Assembly: GCF_027451485.1 (NCBI RefSeq)
Contig: NZ_DAIDJE010000043.1
Span: 1 to 64,000, forward strand
Direction: 5' to 3'
DNA from: Bradyrhizobium sp.
GTDB lineage: Bacteria > Pseudomonadota > Alphaproteobacteria > Rhizobiales > Xanthobacteraceae
DNA length: 64,000 nt
The position numbers and the translations under genes are program-made. Each line of letters begins with the position of its first letter. Position 1 is the first letter of the stretch. The notes under the pieces are model-generated. The model had not been told where the DNA came from. It saw nothing but the letters and a program-made list of their open reading frames with translations, and ran no database searches. This document shows, piece by piece, positions 1,938-15,346 of this stretch.

Positions 1938-3296
1938 TCACTCCTTCACCGGGCAGGTGTGGTTCGTTGAGTCCTCGCCTTTCGCGCCCTGGATCTGATG
2001 CAGGGTCGTCTGGTCGAGCGCGGGTGCATCGCTGGTCGGGAACGGCTTGCTGCCTGCCGGATAGCAGTTCACCGCCAGCACGTAAGCGAGGACATCGGCA
2101 TATTGCTCCGGCGACAGCGAGCCGGGATTATTGGCCGGCATCGCGCTGACGACCATGTTGCGCATGTCCGCCACTTTCCATTCCAGCATCTTCGCCTTCC
2201 TGAGGAAGGCCGCGCCGCCGATCGGCGGTGCCGAGGCGCCGCCCTGCAGATGATTGCCGTGACAGGACGAGCAGTTGCTGTCGAACACGGCCTTGCCCTG
2301 TTCGGCCTGCTGTTCGGTGTAGAGCGCCGGCACATCGCCGGACGTGCTACCGGATTTAAAATCGGCGGAGTTGGCGTCGGCCGACGCGGCATCTGCAGAT
2401 TTGGCGTCGGCAGAGTTGGCGTTGCCCGAGTTGGGATCACCTGACTTTGGATCACCTGAATTGGCATCGGCGGATTTGGGAGGATCTTTCGGGGCAGGCG
2501 TTGCCACCGCGGTCTGCGCATCCGCACAAAGCTTGCCGGAGGGATCAACCGCTGCGCTATGCAGGATGATGGCATTGCCGCGAACCGCGACATCGCGCAC
2601 ACCGAAGGCTTCGGGGAGACGGGTCGTCCCCTCCTCGCGCGGAACGGCCACATAAGTCAGATAGCCCTTGATGACGCCATAGAGCTGAGATTGCGCCGGG
2701 ACCTGATCCGGCGCGGCGCAGCCGGACATGACCCTGGCTCCCGGCGGCACGCCGAGATCGGTGGTGGAGAGCGCGCCGCGCAGGCCGCCGAGCACACCCG
2801 GCTCCGACGACCGCCCGGCCGCAACCAGCAGCGACTGCAAGGCGTCCGAGGTCGCCGACCAGAACTCCTCCAGTGCGTCGGCCTTTGCGGAATCGGAAAG
2901 ATGCGTTTGCGCCACTTGCAGGTTGACCAGCGCGCCCTGCACCGCCGGTCCCCACACGCTTTCGCCGGCGTGCGCAGAGAGCCAGGAAAGATGCGCGATG
3001 GCGCCCGCGCGATCGCCCGGCTCGCCGCCAGTCGCCTGAGAGCCGGGCCCGGCCAGCGCCTCGGCCGCGCGCTGCGCCTGCTGTTTGTAGGGCTCGGCAT
3101 TGGTTGCGGTCACACTGGAGGCCGAACTCAGCGCCGCAATCGCAGCGTCGATATCGGCGAGCGCCTTGATCGCCTCCTGATGCGGATTGCGCGTTTGCTC
3201 CGCGGCTCGCGCGAGAGCGGTAAGGGCAAAACATGCAAGGATCGCCAGCGCGGCGGCGATGATCCGCCGCCGCGCCGCTCGTGGAAAGCTCATCAT
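1938..3296 (-). CDS. Exported c-type cytochrome, probable electron acceptor of the adjacent quinoprotein
   Basis: A 452-residue protein with a signal peptide (AALAILACFALTALARAAE). The N-terminal ~260 residues are an alanine-rich helical region I do not recognise. A low-complexity linker (about residues 275-315) follows, and then one cytochrome c domain with heme motif CSSCH at residues 342-346 and a likely axial Met in the SAMPANNPGSLS segment. The ATGATG start (3296/3293) sits 10 nt after the stop of the PQQ dehydrogenase with a GGGGA ribosome site, so the two are co-transcribed. The natural role is to take electrons from the quinoprotein in the periplasm and pass them to the oxidase. Length is unusual: partner cytochromes of this kind are normally under 250 residues. 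Confidence 0.8.
   Translation of the reverse strand: MMSFPRAARRRIIAAALAILACFALTALARAAEQTRNPHQEAIKALADIDAAIAALSSASSVTATNAEPYKQQAQRAAEALAGPGSQATGGEPGDRAGAIAHLSWLSAHAGESVWGPAVQGALVNLQVAQTHLSDSAKADALEEFWSATSDALQSLLVAAGRSSEPGVLGGLRGALSTTDLGVPPGARVMSGCAAPDQVPAQSQLYGVIKGYLTYVAVPREEGTTRLPEAFGVRDVAVRGNAIILHSAAVDPSGKLCADAQTAVATPAPKDPPKSADANSGDPKSGDPNSGNANSADAKSADAASADANSADFKSGSTSGDVPALYTEQQAEQGKAVFDSNCSSCHGNHLQGGASAPPIGGAAFLRKAKMLEWKVADMRNMVVSAMPANNPGSLSPEQYADVLAYVLAVNCYPAGSKPFPTSDAPALDQTTLHQIQGAKGEDSTNHTCPVKE
2353..2472 (-). repeat. 15-bp tandem repeat, eight units, inside the cytochrome gene
   Basis: Eight consecutive 15-bp units, each starting GA on the plus strand and roughly GANTTGGCATCGGCN, lie in frame within the cytochrome gene. 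They encode pentapeptides of the form S-(A/G)-D/N-x-(N/K) and make a flexible acidic linker between the unknown N-terminal region and the heme domain. Because the unit is a multiple of three, gain or loss of units would change linker length without a frameshift. Confidence 0.8.
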
Positions 3297-3306
3297 CGCG
3301 TCCCCG

Positions 3307-5022
3307 TTACTGCGCGGCCTGCTTCTGGCCACCGGAGACGAATGCGGTCAGCACGGACGGGCCGCTCACCTTCAGCTCCGGAACCTTGAGAAAGCCGGGA
3401 TCGCCGGAGGCGACCAGCACGTAGCGCTTGCCGCCTTCGACGAAGGTCGCCGGCGCGGCGATGATGCTGGCCCCGGTATCGTGCTGCCAGAGCAGCTTGC
3501 CGGAGTTCGCGTCATAGGCATTGAAATGGCCGTCCAGCAATCCGGTGAAGACGATCGATTCCTTTTCCTGCGGGCGGCGAGAGGATTGATAGTTCATGAC
3601 CAGCGCCCCGCCGTTGGCGGGCAGATCGAGATGATGGCGCCAGTTGAACAGTCCGGTCGCGACGTCGATGGCGCTGAACCAGCCGCTGTTCGGCCCCACC
3701 AGCTTTGGAAATCCGCCGCCGAGATAGAACTGGCCGGCCACGAAGGTGGCCTGCTTGTTTGCAGTCCACGAGCCGCACTGATTGCTGCTCGGCACGTAGA
3801 AGGCGTTGGTCGCCGGATCATAGGCGGCGCCGTTGAACTCGACCCCGCCATTGGTGTTCGGACAGGCATAATTGGTGCCGCCGATTTTCGGCGGGGTGTC
3901 CTGGTTGAACTGATAGCTCACCGGCGTCTGGCTGACGAGATCGCCGTTCTCGGCGTTGAGGATCCAGAAATTGCCGGCCTTGTCTCCGGCTGCGGCAAGT
4001 TTCATCTGCTTGCCGTCGACGGTGCCCGTGAACAGAACGGGCGGCATCGCCGGATCCCAGTCGTGCGTGTCGTGGGCGATGAACTGGTGATACCATTTCA
4101 TCTTCGGCTGTGCGGTGGAGATATCGAGCGCGACCATGGAGTTGGTGTAGAGGTTCTTGCCTTCACGCACGGCGCCGAGAAAGTCGGGCTGCGGATTGCC
4201 GGTGCTGACATAGAGCGTGTCGGTGCCGGGATCGATCGCGACGCCGCTCCAGATCGCGCCGCCGCCGCGTTTCCAGGAATCGCCGCTCCAGCTGTCATGA
4301 CCGGGCTCGCCCGGCTTCGGCACGGCATCCCACTGCCATATCCGGTTGCCGGTTTTTGGATCGAAGGCGGCGATATTGCCGATGCCGCCCCAGTCGCCGT
4401 CCGACACGCCCATCAGGATCTTGCCCTTGTAGGGAACCGGCTGCATTGAATAGAAACTGGTCTTGATATCCTCGACCGTCTGCTTGTCCCAGATGACCTT
4501 TCCGGTCTTGGCGTCCAGCGCGGCGAGATGGCCGTTAAGCATGCCGATGAAGACCATGCCGTCATAGACGGCAACGCCGCGATTGCGCGGAAATCCGGTC
4601 AGCTGCTCGACTTTCGGATTGTATTTCCATTTCAGCTCGCCGGTTTTGGCGTCGAGCGCGTAAATGTCGTCGCGGTTCGAGGTGATGTAGACCATGCCGT
4701 CCCAGACGATCGGCGAGGTCTCGGTCGGGCCGTTGCCCGGAATCTTGAAGGTCCACGCCACCTTCATCTGGTCGACGTTTTCCTTGCTGATCTCGTTTTC
4801 CGCGAGCTGGCGATTGTCGCTGTAATCGCCTGCGGGCAGAATCCAGTTCGCGGTATCCTTGGCGGCATCCACCAGCGCTTGCGAGGACGGGCCGGATTGC
4901 CCGGACGAAGCCTGCGGCTGCCGGGACTCCGGCTGCGATGTGTCCGAGGCGGCAAGACCGGATCCAGTGAACGCGACAACGGCGGCGCTGGCCATCAGCG
5001 CCATCTGCAACGAACGTAGCAT
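3307..5022 (-). CDS. PQQ-dependent alcohol dehydrogenase (quinoprotein), lanthanide-type signature
   Basis: A 571-residue exported eight-bladed propeller enzyme that oxidises alcohols in the periplasm using PQQ. The leader ends near GSGLAASD. Propeller motifs (LDAKTGELKWKY, LDAKTGKVIWD, YDANSGKLLWQ) recur. The catalytic Asp lies in HDTHDWD (D321), and the residue two along is also Asp (D323), which is the added metal ligand that marks lanthanide-using XoxF/PedH-type enzymes. N276 (STGNP) fits the conserved metal Asn. Two oddities: the usual vicinal Cys-Cys pair near the PQQ is replaced by G-F-P (143-145), and the metal-ligating Glu (normally GAExG) appears as Asp (D210, in DGDWGG). The ATG at 5022 follows GGGAGG at 7 nt. 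The cytochrome gene starts 10 nt downstream. The substrate is not identifiable. Confidence 0.85.
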   Translation of the reverse strand: MLRSLQMALMASAAVVAFTGSGLAASDTSQPESRQPQASSGQSGPSSQALVDAAKDTANWILPAGDYSDNRQLAENEISKENVDQMKVAWTFKIPGNGPTETSPIVWDGMVYITSNRDDIYALDAKTGELKWKYNPKVEQLTGFPRNRGVAVYDGMVFIGMLNGHLAALDAKTGKVIWDKQTVEDIKTSFYSMQPVPYKGKILMGVSDGDWGGIGNIAAFDPKTGNRIWQWDAVPKPGEPGHDSWSGDSWKRGGGAIWSGVAIDPGTDTLYVSTGNPQPDFLGAVREGKNLYTNSMVALDISTAQPKMKWYHQFIAHDTHDWDPAMPPVLFTGTVDGKQMKLAAAGDKAGNFWILNAENGDLVSQTPVSYQFNQDTPPKIGGTNYACPNTNGGVEFNGAAYDPATNAFYVPSSNQCGSWTANKQATFVAGQFYLGGGFPKLVGPNSGWFSAIDVATGLFNWRHHLDLPANGGALVMNYQSSRRPQEKESIVFTGLLDGHFNAYDANSGKLLWQHDTGASIIAAPATFVEGGKRYVLVASGDPGFLKVPELKVSGPSVLTAFVSGGQKQAAQ

Positions 5023-5134
5023 GAGCGAACCTCCCGATCTTTCGGATTTGTGGGAAGGGAACGGCGCCGTGCTTCGAACGTTGCTATGAGACGTTTCATT
5101 CAAAAGAAATTGAAGTGAGCGGCGCGAACGACTT

Positions 5135-5824
5135 TCACTCCTGCGCTGCCCTCATCGTCTCCAGCAGCGAAGCCGAGTCGCTGACCCAGCCGAAAATGCC
5201 GCCCTGGGCCTTGATCATCTTCAGCCCCGTCTCGTGGAATTCCGGAAAATACGACGCGCAGCCGTCACCGAGCACGATGCAGCGATAGCCGCGGTCGTTG
5301 GCTTCGCGCACGGTGGTGTGAACGCAGACCTCGGTCGTCACGCCGCACACCAGAAGGTTCTCGATACCGTGCCGCTTCAGCTCATCGCCGAGCCCGGTGG
5401 CGTAGAAGGCGCCCTTCCCCGGCTTGTCGATCACGATCTCACCCTCGCGCGGGTAGAGCGCGGCAATGATGTCATGCCCAGCCTCGCCGCGAATGAGGAT
5501 CCGTCCCATCGGGCCGGAATCGCCGATGCGCAAGGAAGGTGCGCCGCGCTCTACCTTGGCCGGAGGCGCGTCGGAGAGGTCAGGCAAGTGCCCCTCGCGG
5601 GTGTGAACGACGAGCAGGCCCGCCTCGCGGGCAGCGGTCAGCACCGCCGCAACCGGCTTCACTGCACGCGACAGCTGTGAGACATCGTTGCCCAGCGTCT
5701 CGCCAAAGCCGCCGGGCTCCAGAAAATCCCGCTGCATGTCGATGATGACCAGCGCCGTTTTCGCGAAGTCGAGTTCGATCGGCGCGGGCTCCGCCTTCAG
5801 AACGCCTTTCCCGGGTTTGTTCAC
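5135..5824 (-). CDS. Isochorismatase-family cysteine hydrolase, biuret-hydrolase paralogue
   Basis: A 229-residue cytoplasmic amidohydrolase closely related to BiuH encoded at 9473. The Asp-Lys-Cys triad is present (D29 in IIDMQ, K134 in DKPGKG, C167 in VCVH), as is the Gln of KMIKAQGG (Q207). This family hydrolyses small ureides and carbamoyl compounds. I start it at GTG 5824 because a perfect sigma-54 promoter (5863-5877) lies just upstream, which rules out a TTG at 5878, and a GGGAGG sits in the short leader. It is divergent from the BMP transporter/biuH operon, so a role on a related nitrogen compound (for example triuret, ureidocarboxylate or biuret itself) is likely, but the exact substrate is not readable. 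Confidence 0.8.
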
Positions 5825-5862: not shown

Positions 5863-5877
5863 GCAAGCGGCGTGCCA
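5863..5877 (-). promoter_or_regulatory. Sigma-54 (RpoN) -24/-12 promoter for the hydrolase at 5824
   Basis: On the minus strand the sequence reads TGGCAC, five bases, TTGC, an exact match to the sigma-54 core. Transcription should begin near 5852, giving a leader of about 28 nt that contains the GGGAGG ribosome site and the GTG start at 5824. Confidence 0.75.
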
Positions 5878-6001
5878 AGGGCGCTGCCGGCTCTAAATTA
5901 AAGGGCGCCGGAATCGCGGCCGCAGGATTTTGGAATCCCGATTTGCCTGGTCCCCCTCAACCCGCTCTCGGCCGCCCGCCTGGTTTTTGGGCGTTCCGGC
6001 T

Positions 6002-6040
6002 GTCGAGTCCCGGCTCCGCACCGTGCGGCGCGGCCTCGAC
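6002..6040. promoter_or_regulatory. Dyad between two divergent sigma-54 promoters, possible activator site
   Basis: Within the 440-bp gap between the divergent genes, GTCGAG (6002-6007) pairs with CTCGAC (6035-6040) around a core CCGCAC-C-GTGCGG (6016-6028). A dyad placed between two sigma-54 promoters could bind an enhancer protein, but it does not clearly match the NtrC consensus, and hairpins are common at this GC content. Apart from this and the two promoters I see nothing else in the gap. Confidence 0.3.
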
Positions 6041-6170
6041 TCCCCGATTGCTCAAGTCTCTCGCATACAATTCAAGGAATCTGCCGTGTTTTTAATCAGC
6101 GCAAATGCGCCCCGTCGCCCTGCGCGAGTCTTTTGCCAATCAAACCAGACAGATACGCGAAACTGCGTTC

Positions 6171-6185
6171 TGGCACGAAGCTTGC
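6171..6185 (+). promoter_or_regulatory. Sigma-54 (RpoN) -24/-12 promoter for the BMP transporter/biuH operon
   Basis: TGGCAC, five bases (GAAGC), TTGC is an exact sigma-54 core. Transcription should start about 11-12 nt beyond, near 6196, leaving a leader of roughly 70 nt before the ATG at 6265. It fits control by nitrogen limitation through an NtrC-type activator. Confidence 0.8.
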
Positions 6186-6264
6186 GACACGCTCTGCTGG
6201 GCCCTGCCGACCGGTCGAGGCCAACAGATGGCAGCGGGAATGATCCGCACGGGGAGTAGTCAAA

Positions 6265-7374
6265 ATGGATTTCAGCAGCATTTCACGACGGCGCCTGTTG
6301 CAGGGAAGCGCGGCGCTGACACTCGGCACGGCGCTCGGCGCACGTAGTGCCGCCGCTGCCGACACCACGATCGGCTTCATCTATGTCGGCTCGCGCGACG
6401 ACTACGGCTACAACCAGGCGCATGCGGCCGGCGCCGCCGTGCTGAAGAAGATGCCAGGCCTCAAGGTGATTGAAGAAGAGAAGGTGCCGGAGACCGACGC
6501 GGTCGAAAAGACCATGGAGTCGATGATCAATCTCGACGGCGCGACGCTGCTGTTTCCGACCTCGTTCGGCTACTACAATCCGCACGTCAAGAAGACCGCG
6601 AGCAAGTACCCGAAGGTGCGTTTCGAGCACTGCGGGGGCCTGTGGACCGACAAGGACCCGAAAAATGCCGGCAGCTATTTCGGCTATATCGACGAGGCGC
6701 AATATATCGCCGGCATCGTCGCCGGCCATACCTCGAAGAGCGGCAAGCTCGGCTTCGTCGCGGCCAAGCCGATCCCGCAGGTGCTGCGCAACATCAACGC
6801 GTTCACGCTCGGCGCCAGGCTCGCCAACCCGAAAGCCACCACGCAGGTGATCTTCACCGGCGACTGGTCGATGCCGGTGAAGGAAGCCGAGGCCACCAAC
6901 AGCCTGATCGATCAGGGCGTGGACGTTCTGACCTGTCACGTCGACGGCCCGAAGACCATGGTGGAGAACGCCGCCCGCCGCGGCGCCTTTGTCTGCGGCT
7001 ATCACGTCAACCAGGCCCCGCTGGCGCCGAAGGCCTATCTTACCGGCGCCGAGTGGAACTGGGAGGCGCTCTATCCGAAATTCGTCAAGATGATGGCTTC
7101 CGGCGAAGGCATTCCGAACTTCTACCGAGGTGGTCTGAAGGAAGAGATCGTCAAGGTGTCGCCTTACGGTCCGGCGGTTTCGGAAACGGCGCGCAAGCAC
7201 GCCGACGAGGTCAAGGCCAAGTTCATGGCGACGGGGCTGACCATCTTCAAGGGCCCGCTGGTCGACAACAAGGGCAAGACCGTCATCGCCGCCGGCACCG
7301 AACGCGGCCAGAAGGATCCCGAGCTCGAGAAGATGGACTATCTGGTCGAGGGCGTGATCGGAGCGACTGCGTGA
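6265..7374 (+). CDS. BMP-family ABC transporter substrate-binding protein
   Basis: A 369-residue periplasmic receptor of the basic-membrane-protein (BMP/PnrA/Med) family. The leader has a twin-arginine motif (SRRRLLQG) ending at SAAAAD. The mature start DTTIGFIYVGSRDDYGYNQAH and later segments FVAAKPIP and TGDW are typical of BMP receptors, which bind nucleosides or, in several proteobacteria, purine or ureide compounds. The ATG is preceded by GGGGAG at 8 nt. Its TGA overlaps the GTG of the first permease, so they are translationally coupled. Because the operon also encodes biuret hydrolase, its ligand is probably biuret or a related nitrogen-rich compound (inference). Confidence 0.85.
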   Translation: MDFSSISRRRLLQGSAALTLGTALGARSAAAADTTIGFIYVGSRDDYGYNQAHAAGAAVLKKMPGLKVIEEEKVPETDAVEKTMESMINLDGATLLFPTSFGYYNPHVKKTASKYPKVRFEHCGGLWTDKDPKNAGSYFGYIDEAQYIAGIVAGHTSKSGKLGFVAAKPIPQVLRNINAFTLGARLANPKATTQVIFTGDWSMPVKEAEATNSLIDQGVDVLTCHVDGPKTMVENAARRGAFVCGYHVNQAPLAPKAYLTGAEWNWEALYPKFVKMMASGEGIPNFYRGGLKEEIVKVSPYGPAVSETARKHADEVKAKFMATGLTIFKGPLVDNKGKTVIAAGTERGQKDPELEKMDYLVEGVIGATA

Positions 7375-8480
7375 CCTCTGAAGCCGTTGATCCGGTGGAG
7401 GCCGTCGGGCACATCGCTCCGGCGTCCGACGCCGGATTCCTTCAGCGCTTCGGCGCAACCATCGAATACATCCTGATCCCGGGCGCGGCGCTGGCCGGCG
7501 CGCTTGTGGTCTTCGGCATCTTTGTCGCGCTGTTCGGCAAGAACCCGTTCGACCTTTATTTCTACATGTATCGCGGCGCGTTCGGCACCTGGTTCTCCTG
7601 GCAGAACACCTTGACGCGCGCCGCGCCGTTGATCCTCACCGCGCTCTGCACCGCGCTGCCCGCGCAGCTCGGCATGGTCATCATCGGCGGTGAAGGCGCG
7701 CTGTTGATCGGTGCATTGTCGGCAACTTCCGCCGCGCTCGTGATGCCTTCGGCGCCGCCGCTCGCCGTCCAGCTCGCAATGGCAGCAGCCGGCATGATCG
7801 GCGGCGGCCTGTGGATCATGCTCACGGGGGCCTTGCGGCAATATCGCGGCGTCAACGAGACGATATCGAGCCTGCTGCTCGTCTATATTGCGCTCGCCAT
7901 TCTCAATCACCTCGTCGAAGGACCGATGCGCGATCCCGCGAGCCTCAACAAGCCGTCGACCCGCGAGATCGGCGCGGCCAACATGATCGGCTCCATCCCC
8001 GGCACCGAGGTGCATTGGGGCCTGGTGTTCGGCCTGATCGCCGCGACCGTTTCCTACATTCTGATCTATCACACCACCTTCGGCTTTGCGGTGCGCGTCG
8101 CCGGCGGCAATATCCGCGCCGCGAAAATCGTCGGCCTCTCGGTGGGCAAATTGGTCCTGACCATCTGCTTTCTCGCCGGTGCCTGCGCCGGGCTTTCCGG
8201 CATGGTCGAGGTCGCCGCCGTGCAGGGCCGCACCAATGCCAACCTCGCCGCCGGCTATGGCTTTACCGGAATCCTGGTCGCGTTTCTGGCGCGGCAAAAT
8301 CCGCTCGCCGTCATTCCGGTCGCGGTCCTGATTGGCGGCATCGGCGCGAGCGGAGGCCTGTTGCAGCGCAGACTCGGCCTGCCCGATGCCTCGGTGCTGG
8401 TGCTGCAAGGCATCATCTTCGTGTTCGTGCTGGCGAGCGACGCGCTCTACGGCCGGATCGGCTTTTTGAAAGGCAGGTGA
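7371..8480 (+). CDS. ABC transporter inner-membrane permease, first subunit
   Basis: A 369-residue integral membrane protein of the branched-chain/BMP permease superfamily, partner of the receptor at 6265. A cytoplasmic N-terminus of about 30 residues precedes eight or more hydrophobic segments. The block GMVIIGGEGALLIGAL and the ENI-like stretch RGVNETISSLLLVYIAL are typical of this family. It starts with GTG, overlapping the upstream stop by four bases (GTGA). The second permease follows after a 54-nt gap. It imports the same ligand as the rest of the operon. Confidence 0.82.
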   Translation: MTSEAVDPVEAVGHIAPASDAGFLQRFGATIEYILIPGAALAGALVVFGIFVALFGKNPFDLYFYMYRGAFGTWFSWQNTLTRAAPLILTALCTALPAQLGMVIIGGEGALLIGALSATSAALVMPSAPPLAVQLAMAAAGMIGGGLWIMLTGALRQYRGVNETISSLLLVYIALAILNHLVEGPMRDPASLNKPSTREIGAANMIGSIPGTEVHWGLVFGLIAATVSYILIYHTTFGFAVRVAGGNIRAAKIVGLSVGKLVLTICFLAGACAGLSGMVEVAAVQGRTNANLAAGYGFTGILVAFLARQNPLAVIPVAVLIGGIGASGGLLQRRLGLPDASVLVLQGIIFVFVLASDALYGRIGFLKGR

Positions 8481-8534: not shown

Positions 8535-9461
8535 ATGGCTGACGCAGGAATCGGACTCTGGACCGTGCCGCTCGCCGTGATCGGCGGCGCCATCCGCGTC
8601 TCCACGCCGTTTCTGTTCGTCAGCCTGGGCGAATGCATCACCGAGCGCTCCGGCCGCATCAACCTCGGCCTTGAAGGCACGCTGGTCATGGGCGCGATGA
8701 GCGCCTACGGCATCTCTTATTTCAGCGGCTCGCCGTGGATCGGCGTTCTCTCAGCCGGCATCACCGGCGCGCTGCTCGGCGCGCTCCATGCCGGCATCTG
8801 CTCACTGCCGCGCGTCAATGACGTTGCGGTCGGCATTGCCCTGATGCTGTTCGGCACCGGCCTCGCCTTCTTTCTCGGCAAGCCGCTGATCGAGCCGACG
8901 GCTCCAAGATTGCCGGCGATCGATTTCGGCTGGTGGAGCGATATTCCGCAGGTCAAGGCGGCGCTGCGCGTCAACGTGCTGTTTCTGTTCGGCGTGGCGC
9001 TCGCACCCGTTCTGTATTGGGCGTTCCGCGCCACGCGCTGGGGTCTTTTGATCCGCACGACCGGCGAAAGCTCGGATGCCGCGCGCGCCATGGGCCACTC
9101 GGTGCTGCTGATCCGCCTGCGCGCCACCATGGTCGGCGGGTTCCTCGCCGGCATCGGCGGCTCGTTCCTGTCGCTGTTCTATCCCGGCAGCTGGAATGAA
9201 GGTCTATCGTCGGGACAAGGTATCACCGCAGTCGCGCTCGTGATCTTCGCGCGCTGGGATCCGATGCTGTGCCTTTGGGCCTCGCTCGCCTTTGGCGGAG
9301 CGGCGGCGCTTGGCCCGGCGCTGCAATCGGTCGGCGTCACCTTCGGCTATCATCTGTTCAACGCCGCGCCTTATTTCCTGACGCTGGCGATCATGATCAT
9401 CACCTGCTCGCCGAAGCGCATGCTGACCGGCGCACCCGCTGAACTCTCGATCACGAGGTAA
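8535..9461 (+). CDS. ABC transporter inner-membrane permease, second subunit
   Basis: A 308-residue polytopic protein with the motif '[17 protein letters not shown]', characteristic of the second permease of BMP-type (nucleoside-like) importers. Hydrophobic segments run nearly end to end, with a cytoplasmic EAA-like loop near [12 protein letters not shown]. It pairs with the permease at 7371 and the ATPase at 10154. BiuH starts 11 nt after its stop, so both are in one transcript. Confidence 0.82.
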
Positions 9462-10153: not shown

Positions 10154-11686
10154 GTGCTTGTCGGCGAGATACCACCGCCGCGAGGTGCCTTCGGCATCGA
10201 CGCCATCGCCATGACCATGCGCTTCGGCGATTTCCTGGCGCTTGATGATGTCGAACTGAGGGTCCGGTCCGGAACGCTGCATGCGCTGCTCGGCGAGAAC
10301 GGCGCGGGCAAGAGCACGCTCGTCAAATGCATCATGGGCTATTATCACGCCACCGAAGGACAGATCATTGTCGGCGATCGCGAGCAGGCGATCGCCAACC
10401 CGAAGGACGCGCATGCGCTGGGTCTCGGCATGGTCTACCAGCATTTCACGCTGGTGCCGGCGATGACGGTCGCCGAAAACCTGGTGCTGGCGCGCGACAA
10501 CGTGCCGGGCGTGGTCGACTGGCCGAAGGAACGGAAGGAACTGGAAGCGTTCCTGGCGCGGATGCCGTTCAGGGTGCCGCTCAATGCCCGCGTCTCCGAC
10601 ATCTCCGCCGGCGAACGGCAGAAGTGTGAGATCCTCAAGCAGCTTTATCTGAAGCGGCGCTTTTTGATCCTCGACGAACCGACCTCGGTGCTGACGCCCG
10701 GCGAGGCCGACGAGGTGCTCGGCCTGCTGCGCAAGATGGTCGAAGGCGGCGAACTGACCATCCTGATGATCACGCACAAGTTCCGCGAGGTGATGGCGTT
10801 CGCCGACGAGGTGACTATCCTGCGCCGTGGCAAGCTTGCAGGCAAAGGCCTCGTCAAGGAACTGACGCCGGATGCGATGGCGCGCGCCATGATCGGCGCC
10901 GAAGAACTGACCATCCAGCCGCCGCGTTCAGGCGAGACCGGAGGCGTGCGGCTCGAGCTGGACAAGCTCTGCGCGCTTGACGACGCCGGCGCGGTTGCCG
11001 TGAACGAGGTTTCTCTTGCGGTACGCGGCGGCGAAATCGTCGGCATCGCCGGCGTCTCCGGCAACGGCCAGCGCCAGCTTGTCGAAGTGCTGGCCGGCCA
11101 GCGCGAAGCCGAGCGCGGCGAAATCCGCGTCGCCGGCGAGGCCTATCATGCGAGCCGCGAGGAAATGCGCCGGCACCGGATGTCGCTGTTGCCGGAAGAG
11201 CCGCTGAAAAACGCCTGCGTCGGTGGCATGAGTGTTGCCGACAACATCGCCCTTCGCAAATTCGACCGCGCGCCGTTTGCCTTGGGCGGATGGTGGCTCA
11301 ACCGCGGCGCCTTCCGCAGCGATGCCGAGAAGAAGATCAGCCGCTACAAGATCAAGACCCGCGGCCCCGACATGCCGATCTCGGCGCTCTCGGGCGGCAA
11401 CGTGCAGCGCGCAGTGCTCGCGCGCGAACTCGGAGGCGACGTCGCGGTGCTGATTGCCGCCAACCCGTGCTTTGGGCTCGATTTCGCCGCCGTCGCTCAG
11501 ATCCGTGCCGAGATCATGGCGGCGCGCAACCGCGGCGCGGCCGTGCTGCTGGTCAGCGAGGACCTCGACGAACTACTGGAGTTGTCGGATCGTCTCGTGG
11601 TGATGTTTCATGGCCAGCTGGTCTACGAGGCGCGCGCCAGCGAAGCCGACCTGACGGAAGTCGGCCGCCACATGGCGGGACACTGA
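10154..11686 (+). CDS. ABC transporter ATPase with two nucleotide-binding domains
   Basis: A 510-residue double ATPase that powers the BMP-type importer. The N-terminal domain has Walker A GENGAGKST (about 47-55), signature SAGERQ and Walker B FLILDEPTS. The C-terminal domain is degenerate in the manner usual for this family: P-loop GVSGNGQRQ, signature LSGGNVQRA and a Walker B without the usual DEP (LIAANPCFGLDF). It starts at GTG directly after the biuH stop (TAA 10151-10153, GTG 10154). It is the last gene of the operon. A small minus-strand gene converges on it. Confidence 0.85.
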   Translation: MLVGEIPPPRGAFGIDAIAMTMRFGDFLALDDVELRVRSGTLHALLGENGAGKSTLVKCIMGYYHATEGQIIVGDREQAIANPKDAHALGLGMVYQHFTLVPAMTVAENLVLARDNVPGVVDWPKERKELEAFLARMPFRVPLNARVSDISAGERQKCEILKQLYLKRRFLILDEPTSVLTPGEADEVLGLLRKMVEGGELTILMITHKFREVMAFADEVTILRRGKLAGKGLVKELTPDAMARAMIGAEELTIQPPRSGETGGVRLELDKLCALDDAGAVAVNEVSLAVRGGEIVGIAGVSGNGQRQLVEVLAGQREAERGEIRVAGEAYHASREEMRRHRMSLLPEEPLKNACVGGMSVADNIALRKFDRAPFALGGWWLNRGAFRSDAEKKISRYKIKTRGPDMPISALSGGNVQRAVLARELGGDVAVLIAANPCFGLDFAAVAQIRAEIMAARNRGAAVLLVSEDLDELLELSDRLVVMFHGQLVYEARASEADLTEVGRHMAGH

Positions 11687-14782: not shown

Positions 14783-15346
14783 CTACTTGTCGGACTGCGT
14801 AGCCGCATCCGGCGCGAGGGCGCGCTTCTGCAAATCCGGAACATTGACCTTGACGCCGTTCGACATGATGACGTCGCCGGGCTTTTGATCCGCGGCACAG
14901 GCCCCCAGCCACTTGCCCTCCATCGTCATCCTGGCCGCCGGCAGGTCCTTGCCTTCCGCCGTCACTGTCATGGTGTAGGCGCTGTCGAAACTGCCGGTGA
15001 CAACCGCGCGTGCACTGGCCGGCTTGCCGTTGAAACTGCATCGGGACTCGATCGTGAACCCGCTGTCGGATTTGCTGACCTGACGGGACGGGCAGGCCTG
15101 CGCGGAGAGAGGACCGGTGCTCGATTGCAGCATCCGGTCGGTCGCCGCATCGATACATTGCTTCACGGTGACGGCGTGGCCCCCGATCGTGGTTTTGATC
15201 TCCCACAGGCCGGCCTTGCGGGCCGGCGCGTCATCGGCGGCGGCCTGGACGACGAACAGCAGGCTGACGACCGCACCGATACAGAAGGCGGCGCTTGAAT
15301 TACCTGTGCCGGGCGACCGACGTTGACCGGATCTCATGGATGCCAT
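14783..15346 (-). CDS. Exported DUF3617-family protein
   Basis: A 187-residue protein with a long basic leader and hydrophobic segment ending near VVQAAADD. The mature part begins with the DUF3617 hallmark GLWEIKT, followed by conserved cysteines (VKQCIDAAT, QACPSRQ, SRCSFNG, GACAAD). The family is periplasmic and of unknown function, widespread in Alpha- and Betaproteobacteria. The ATG is preceded by GAGG at 5 nt. It is divergent from the RND pump. Confidence 0.75.
   Translation of the reverse strand: MASMRSGQRRSPGTGNSSAAFCIGAVVSLLFVVQAAADDAPARKAGLWEIKTTIGGHAVTVKQCIDAATDRMLQSSTGPLSAQACPSRQVSKSDSGFTIESRCSFNGKPASARAVVTGSFDSAYTMTVTAEGKDLPAARMTMEGKWLGACAADQKPGDVIMSNGVKVNVPDLQKRALAPDAATQSDK

Follow-up and report, generated by a model that had tools for sequence, protein, structure and literature searches.

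Two divergent sigma-54 promoters in the 64-kb stretch of DNA analysed here (the window) very probably serve the scavenging of triuret and biuret and would be driven by NtrC under nitrogen shortage. One of them precedes trtA, which encodes a predicted triuret hydrolase, and the other an operon with the genes of an ABC transporter and of the predicted biuret hydrolase BiuH, and the soil bacterium probably switches on both units when nitrogen is short. For this strain we infer the role of NtrC, the cargo of the transporter, the activities of the enzymes and the function of the promoters. In the proposed model NtrC would act under nitrogen shortage on enhancer sites between the two promoters and would drive RNA polymerase with RpoN both ways, to the left into trtA and to the right into the ABC-biuH operon. 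Triuret would then be cut to carboxybiuret, which would give biuret, BiuH would cut biuret to allophanate, and the remainder would be freed as ammonia by an allophanate hydrolase whose gene is located elsewhere behind a promoter of this kind. All parts belong to known types, and we regard the locus as an ordinary regulatory mechanism on an unusual pathway and not as a new type of system. The features of the locus are:

5135 to 5824, minus strand: trtA, predicted triuret hydrolase; GTG start; best match PDB 6XIX
5863 to 5877, minus strand: sigma-54 promoter of trtA, TGGCACGCCGCTTGC; GTG start 39 bases past the end of the site
5977 to 5993, no strand assigned: possible NtrC-like enhancer, CGCCTGGTTTTTGGGCG; distance to the trtA promoter 99 bp; 9.5 bits, P 0.04 compared to shuffles
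6049 to 6065, no strand assigned: weak possible NtrC-like enhancer, TGCTCAAGTCTCTCGCA; distance to the operon promoter 105 bp; 5.1 bits
6171 to 6185, plus strand: sigma-54 promoter of the ABC-biuH operon, TGGCACGAAGCTTGC; ATG 80 bases past the end of the site
6265 to 7374, plus strand: BMP-family periplasmic binding protein of an ABC transporter; PF02608; nearest solved relative 6PI5
7380 to 8480, plus strand: ABC permease 1; PF02653; start approximate
8535 to 9461, plus strand: ABC permease 2; PF02653
9473 to 10153, plus strand: biuH, predicted biuret hydrolase; NCBIfam NF050097, 428.7 bits, cut-off 370
10154 to 11686, plus strand: ABC transporter ATPase; PF00005 in two stretches

Results and Discussion

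The promoter pair

An earlier note on this DNA had placed perfect sigma-54 sites at 5877-5863 on the minus strand and at 6171-6185 on the plus strand, and a pattern scan found both of them there as the full consensus TGGCAC-N5-TTGC with GG at -24, GC at -12 and the exact spacing. The two cores face outward with 293 bp between them, which replaces the interval of 285 bp given before. That the pattern occurs only here is true for the window, which contains just these two perfect matches compared to a mean of 0.15 in 100 dinucleotide shuffles, but not for the genome (5.33 Mb in 216 contigs), where 24 perfect matches were found versus nine for the reversed pattern. By chance, these 24 sites would be expected to give only about 0.008 outward-facing pairs within 323 bp. 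When one mismatch was allowed, the window showed six matches versus 5.39 by chance and thus no enrichment, so that only the perfect pair stands out. A single RpoN is encoded in the genome (434.7 bits, family cut-off 277.35). The claim that the locus is under sigma-54 control is backed by the conservation of the sites, the presence of rpoN and ntrC, the promoters of other nitrogen genes and RNA-seq data of rpoN mutants of Bradyrhizobium sp. DOA9, all described below.

The enzymes and the transporter

The genes behind the two promoters had been described as ureide hydrolases, and while there is indeed a hydrolase on each side, comparison of their sequences identifies them more properly as a predicted triuret hydrolase TrtA on the minus strand and a predicted biuret hydrolase BiuH on the plus strand. 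The nearest match of the trtA product is the triuret hydrolase TrtA from Herbaspirillum (PDB 6XIX), the enzyme of PMC7948467. We checked 13 residues that are named in PMC7948467 for catalysis, substrate contact and specificity, and all 13 agree, among them the catalytic D24, K129 and C162, the TrtA-type F35, N41, E160 and I205 as well as E72, K132 and Q202. At the positions of F35, N41, E160 and I205 BiuH has Y, Y, D and V, which is the BiuH pattern according to PMC7948467. With the biuret hydrolase model NF050097 the minus-strand enzyme scores 255.2 bits and stays below the cut-off of 370. The start of trtA is most likely the GTG at 5824 because relatives carry an ATG there. The D at the specificity position of BiuH we take to be the expected residue in view of the passage on the change of E160 to aspartate. 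As a further candidate family, the ureidoacrylate hydrolase RutB was rejected (119.8 and 119.1 bits, NCBIfam cut-off 377.95). Directly after trtA and on the same strand there are genes for a PQQ-dependent dehydrogenase and a cytochrome c (1938-5103 of the window).

The plus-strand site had been described as standing before a hydrolase operon. An operon does follow, in the order binding protein, permease, permease, biuH and ATPase, but its first gene encodes the binding protein and the hydrolase is gene four. The transporter may carry biuret or triuret. Alternatively, the operon might mainly import nucleosides, nucleobases or another ring compound and the locus might serve purine breakdown, with BiuH sharing the operon with a transporter of wider purpose. 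This would fit with the BMP type of the transporter, whose nearest solved relative is named an atrazine periplasmic binding protein, with the designation of a comparable set next to biuH and trtA as a nucleoside transporter in PMC12625717, and with a deaminase-like gene that comes next in the DOA9 operon. It would also fit with a 550-aa protein that is encoded after trtA in 60 of the 80 loci examined (best 80 of 550 trtA relatives; for example L058:8198-9850) and that looks membrane-like by eye; this protein, without a match in Pfam and not found in the window, is a candidate triuret transporter. On the other hand, the deaminase gene is absent from the window, TrtA and BiuH are both present with the expected residues, and the NCBIfam models for B6 transporters, which we had tried as a candidate assignment and rejected, score far below their cut-offs. 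Overall we consider purine breakdown as the main purpose possible but unlikely and prefer the scavenging of triuret and biuret. The additional gene in DOA9 is cytidine-deaminase-like (L226:6764-7249).

Conservation of both promoters

To describe the conservation of the two sites we used 81 regions upstream of trtA (the best 80 of 550 trtA relatives and the own genome) and a set for the binding protein that includes 30 loci with the own genome counted, 33 of 296 family genomes having matched at E 1e-90. The promoter counts exclude five loci in which the identity to the binding protein is below 60% (L056, L057, L098, L105 and L122). A site with at most one mismatch is present in 37 of 39 regions upstream of the plus-strand operon, 29 of them perfect and the own genome included, and one of the two misses is not real as upstream DNA is lacking in L052. 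Upstream of trtA such a site is found in 73 of the 81 regions (best 80 of 550 and own), 55 being perfect, compared to about 1.5 of 81 expected by chance from the one-mismatch rate in the window; all counts come from two genome collections in which the same species is possibly present twice and from relatives that are not independent. The eight trtA regions without a match all belong to relatives with 78% identity or less (best 80 of 550), and in 24 of the 26 imperfect conserved sites TGGCAT replaces TGGCAC. In the alignments of the upstream regions each site ranks first for conservation among all 15-mers, namely 1 of 245 for the operon and 1 of 215 for trtA, and the identity of the cores is 0.98 and 0.93 versus 0.60 and 0.46 in the remaining upstream region.

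These data also bear on whether the pair could be consensus strings that arose by chance and have no function. Two of the 100 shuffles of the window also gave two perfect matches, and of the 22 perfect matches elsewhere in the genome 14 are located inside open frames as called by a crude script, both of which speak for chance. Against it, both sites are kept in dozens of relatives at a similar distance to the start codon, and RpoN dependence of the matching genes has been reported in PMC13207237, and we regard a chance origin as extremely improbable.

Layout of the divergent pair

For the layout only binding proteins with more than 75% identity were counted. In 12 loci trtA and the binding protein gene are located on one stretch of DNA and all 12 are divergent, but the aligned distance from start to start is 438 bp here versus 3.3-6.9 kb in the other 11, and thus among these 12 loci the back-to-back layout with the orthologous transporter is found only here. 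In the remaining trtA loci (from the best 80 of 550) no binding protein with more than 75% identity was found within the flanking DNA covered. The simplest reading for this contig from a draft genome would be that the DNA between the two units has been lost in this lineage. Going further, one may tentatively propose that two units, each with its own promoter and enhancer in the relatives, were joined by this loss, that both promoters now use a single pair of NtrC sites and that the enhancer copies have started to decay because they are shared, although we see this as rather doubtful. The back-to-back pair offers a natural test case for enhancer sharing. In a Rhodopseudomonas locus (L122) a distant BMP-type gene (5902-6882, minus strand, 32% identical) is oriented away from trtA at a distance of about 0.6 kb, and no sigma-54 match precedes trtA there. 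This may be an independent assembly of a comparable pair.

Comparison with the RpoN regulon of DOA9 and other known systems

The rpoN mutants of Bradyrhizobium sp. DOA9 have been analysed by RNA-seq in microaerobic nitrogen-fixing culture (PMC13207237). In Table 1 of that work the isochorismatase 41390 appears with TGGCACGGCGCTTGC at -37, and for the BMP binding protein 51377 TGGCACGAAGCTTGC is given at -73 and -76. The isochorismatases 41390 and 51380 are described as downregulated in the mutants. The 15-mer TGGCACGGCGCTTGC is also given there for an EF-hand protein at -57, and the EMSA list says just 'ABC-transporter' and does not specify which one. In the DOA9 sequence record we found trtA with TGGCACGGCGCTTGC and its ATG 37 bases past the end of the site, and the BMP gene with TGGCACGAAGCTTGC, identical to the plus-strand site of the window, and its ATG 76 bases past the end. 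The order of the DOA9 operon is BMP, permease, permease, BiuH, ATPase and deaminase. Judged by name, promoter, distance and gene order and not by locus tags, 41390 should be trtA and 51380 should be BiuH. Thus, trtA and the BMP operon carry sigma-54 15-mers at matching distances in both strains, but in DOA9 the two are about 3 Mb apart according to the coordinates of the record, whereas they form a divergent pair with 293 bp between the cores here.

Biuret is not mentioned in PMC13207237, where 41390 and 51380 are grouped with infection- or virulence-like genes. Our comparison suggests that these two 'virulence-like isochorismatases' are a triuret and a biuret hydrolase, and the value of the analysis lies in this annotation and in the likely correction of a published reading. 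It also makes the use of triuret and biuret, a recently found pathway, part of the response of Bradyrhizobium-like soil bacteria to nitrogen starvation, an argument for both compounds being nitrogen sources there and not mere impurities of fertiliser. Among the open-access articles searched we found none that joins biuret with sigma-54, and one that contains NtrC and, a single time, the word biuret.

The three enzyme families are those of the trtA-biuH-atzF triuret pathway (PMC7948467), but the operons from Herbaspirillum and Rhizobium leguminosarum described there hold all three genes, whereas atzF is located on another contig here, with its own sigma-54 promoter. The main text of PMC7948467 contains neither 'promoter' nor 'gene cluster', and its sole match to 'regulat' is in the title of a reference. 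From the NtrC regulon of Rhizobiales (PMC5343134) atzF and the urea ABC transporters carry the enhancer motif described below also in our genome, and the difference is that trtA and the BMP-biuH operon would be added to this regulon here; 'biuret' is absent from the main text of PMC5343134. The trtA-biuH-atzF-bmpA-nupABC clusters from nitrifiers (PMC12625717) combine the same enzymes with a BMP-type transporter, but they come from other bacteria, have another layout and are discussed in terms of gene content.

The same promoter elsewhere in the genome

We inspected the surroundings (up to 3 kb) of all 22 other perfect sites in the genome using open frames from the crude script. Seven of them precede a gene in the right direction, and 14 of the remaining 15 are inside called open frames and look like chance matches. 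The genes behind the seven sites encode:

urtA
allophanate hydrolase
glnII
binding protein of an oligopeptide-type ABC transporter
flgE
flgI
another ABC permease

With at most one mismatch the urtA promoter is kept in 29 of 30 loci and that of the allophanate hydrolase AtzF in 16 of 29, L158 having been dropped from 30 loci because its upstream DNA is too short. All of the latter are from the same genus (16 of 17 loci), and the AtzF site was found in 0 of 12 loci of other genera examined. For glnII the site is kept in nine of 20 loci, two of them perfect. For cyanuric-acid hydrolase, the enzyme of the step before biuret, no match was obtained in the own genome, which shows little as the control genomes likewise gave none.

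The enhancer motif and NtrC

All motif tests were restricted to upstream regions with a sigma-54 match, i.e. 37 of 39 for the ABC operon, 73 of 81 for trtA, 16 of 29 for AtzF, 29 of 30 for UrtA and nine of 20 for GlnII. The dyad TGC-N11-GCA, which we take to be the geometry of the enteric NtrC site, occurs in 32 of 37 regions upstream of the ABC operon (own included; 4.8 in shuffles), in 10 of 16 upstream of AtzF (1.9) and in 16 of 29 upstream of UrtA (3.0). Before trtA (best 80 of 550 and own) the strict form is modest with 15 of 73 versus 8.6 expected and other spacings are even more common, namely N16 with 39 of 73 and N5 with 24 of 73, and the looser YGC-N11-GCR clusters there with 43 and 40 matches in the bins starting at -140 and -100 (73 sequences). 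Looser forms of the dyad show the same spacing at lower contrast. A matrix trained on three families detects the fourth one with z 18 to 29 when each of four families is left out in turn, where training excluded the own genome and the motif seed had been picked after viewing some of the same sequences. In these four families 32 of 36, 50 of 72, 15 of 15 and 28 of 28 sequences are above the 95% line of the shuffles, and the motif is common to four of the five families tested. GlnII, although an expected target, is the fifth with z 4.2, two of eight relatives above the line and no match in the own genome (P 0.454).

In the own genome clear matches to the motif precede atzF, urtA and the oligopeptide-type ABC operon (P ≤0.004), and none was detected before flgE and flgI (P 0.93 and 0.46) or before the other ABC permease with a sigma-54 site (P 0.588). 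The genome has two matches to the pattern TGCYYANNNNNTRRGCA versus one to the reversed control. One of the two is located before the allophanate hydrolase and the other before glnK-amtB, a match outside of the training. About 80 bp beyond this motif match glnK-amtB has TGGCACGGCATTTGA, a sigma-54 site that by eye ends in TTGA and not TTGC and was missed by the strict scan; glnK was identified by eye from its translated start. The genes amtB and glnBK are core NtrC targets in PMC5343134, which also describes atzF and the urea ABC transporters as NtrC-regulated in Rhizobiales.

As the motif common to the other promoters also precedes glnK-amtB, NtrC is likely the activator of both promoters in the window, as far as can be judged from the DNA. 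One NtrC is found above the cut-off in the genome (746.3 bits, cut-off 558.6). In a scan of the interval for NtrC sites with a matrix, as suggested in the earlier note, the motif is weak: the best match to the common motif is the site at 5977 to 5993 with 9.5 bits and P 0.04, and the second one with 5.1 bits, at 6049 to 6065, falls into a block that is conserved among relatives. This weakness of the motif in the window would also agree with another enhancer-binding protein such as NtrX or a different NtrC-like protein serving the sigma-54 promoters and perhaps sensing a compound of the pathway instead of the nitrogen status, and three more proteins of nearly full length have matches to the NtrC model that stay below the cut-off. 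Nevertheless, such an activator appears quite improbable in view of a motif that is common to the promoters of urea uptake and allophanate hydrolase, is found before glnK-amtB and is absent before the two flagellar sigma-54 sites, and in view of the NtrC regulation listed for atzF and the urea transporters in PMC5343134. We thus favour NtrC.

The perfect sigma-54 site before the gene of the oligopeptide-type ABC binding protein, TGGCACGAACCTTGC, is located at 14975-14989 on the minus strand of L138 (own genome, C40:47000-66000) and its enhancer match is strong (16.0 bits, P 0.002). Between this binding protein gene and the allophanate hydrolase gene we recognized by eye permeases, an ATPase, an amidase-like gene and a GntR-like regulator. 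In PMC13207237 the DOA9 gene 40023 is listed with a 15-mer identical to TGGCACGAACCTTGC.
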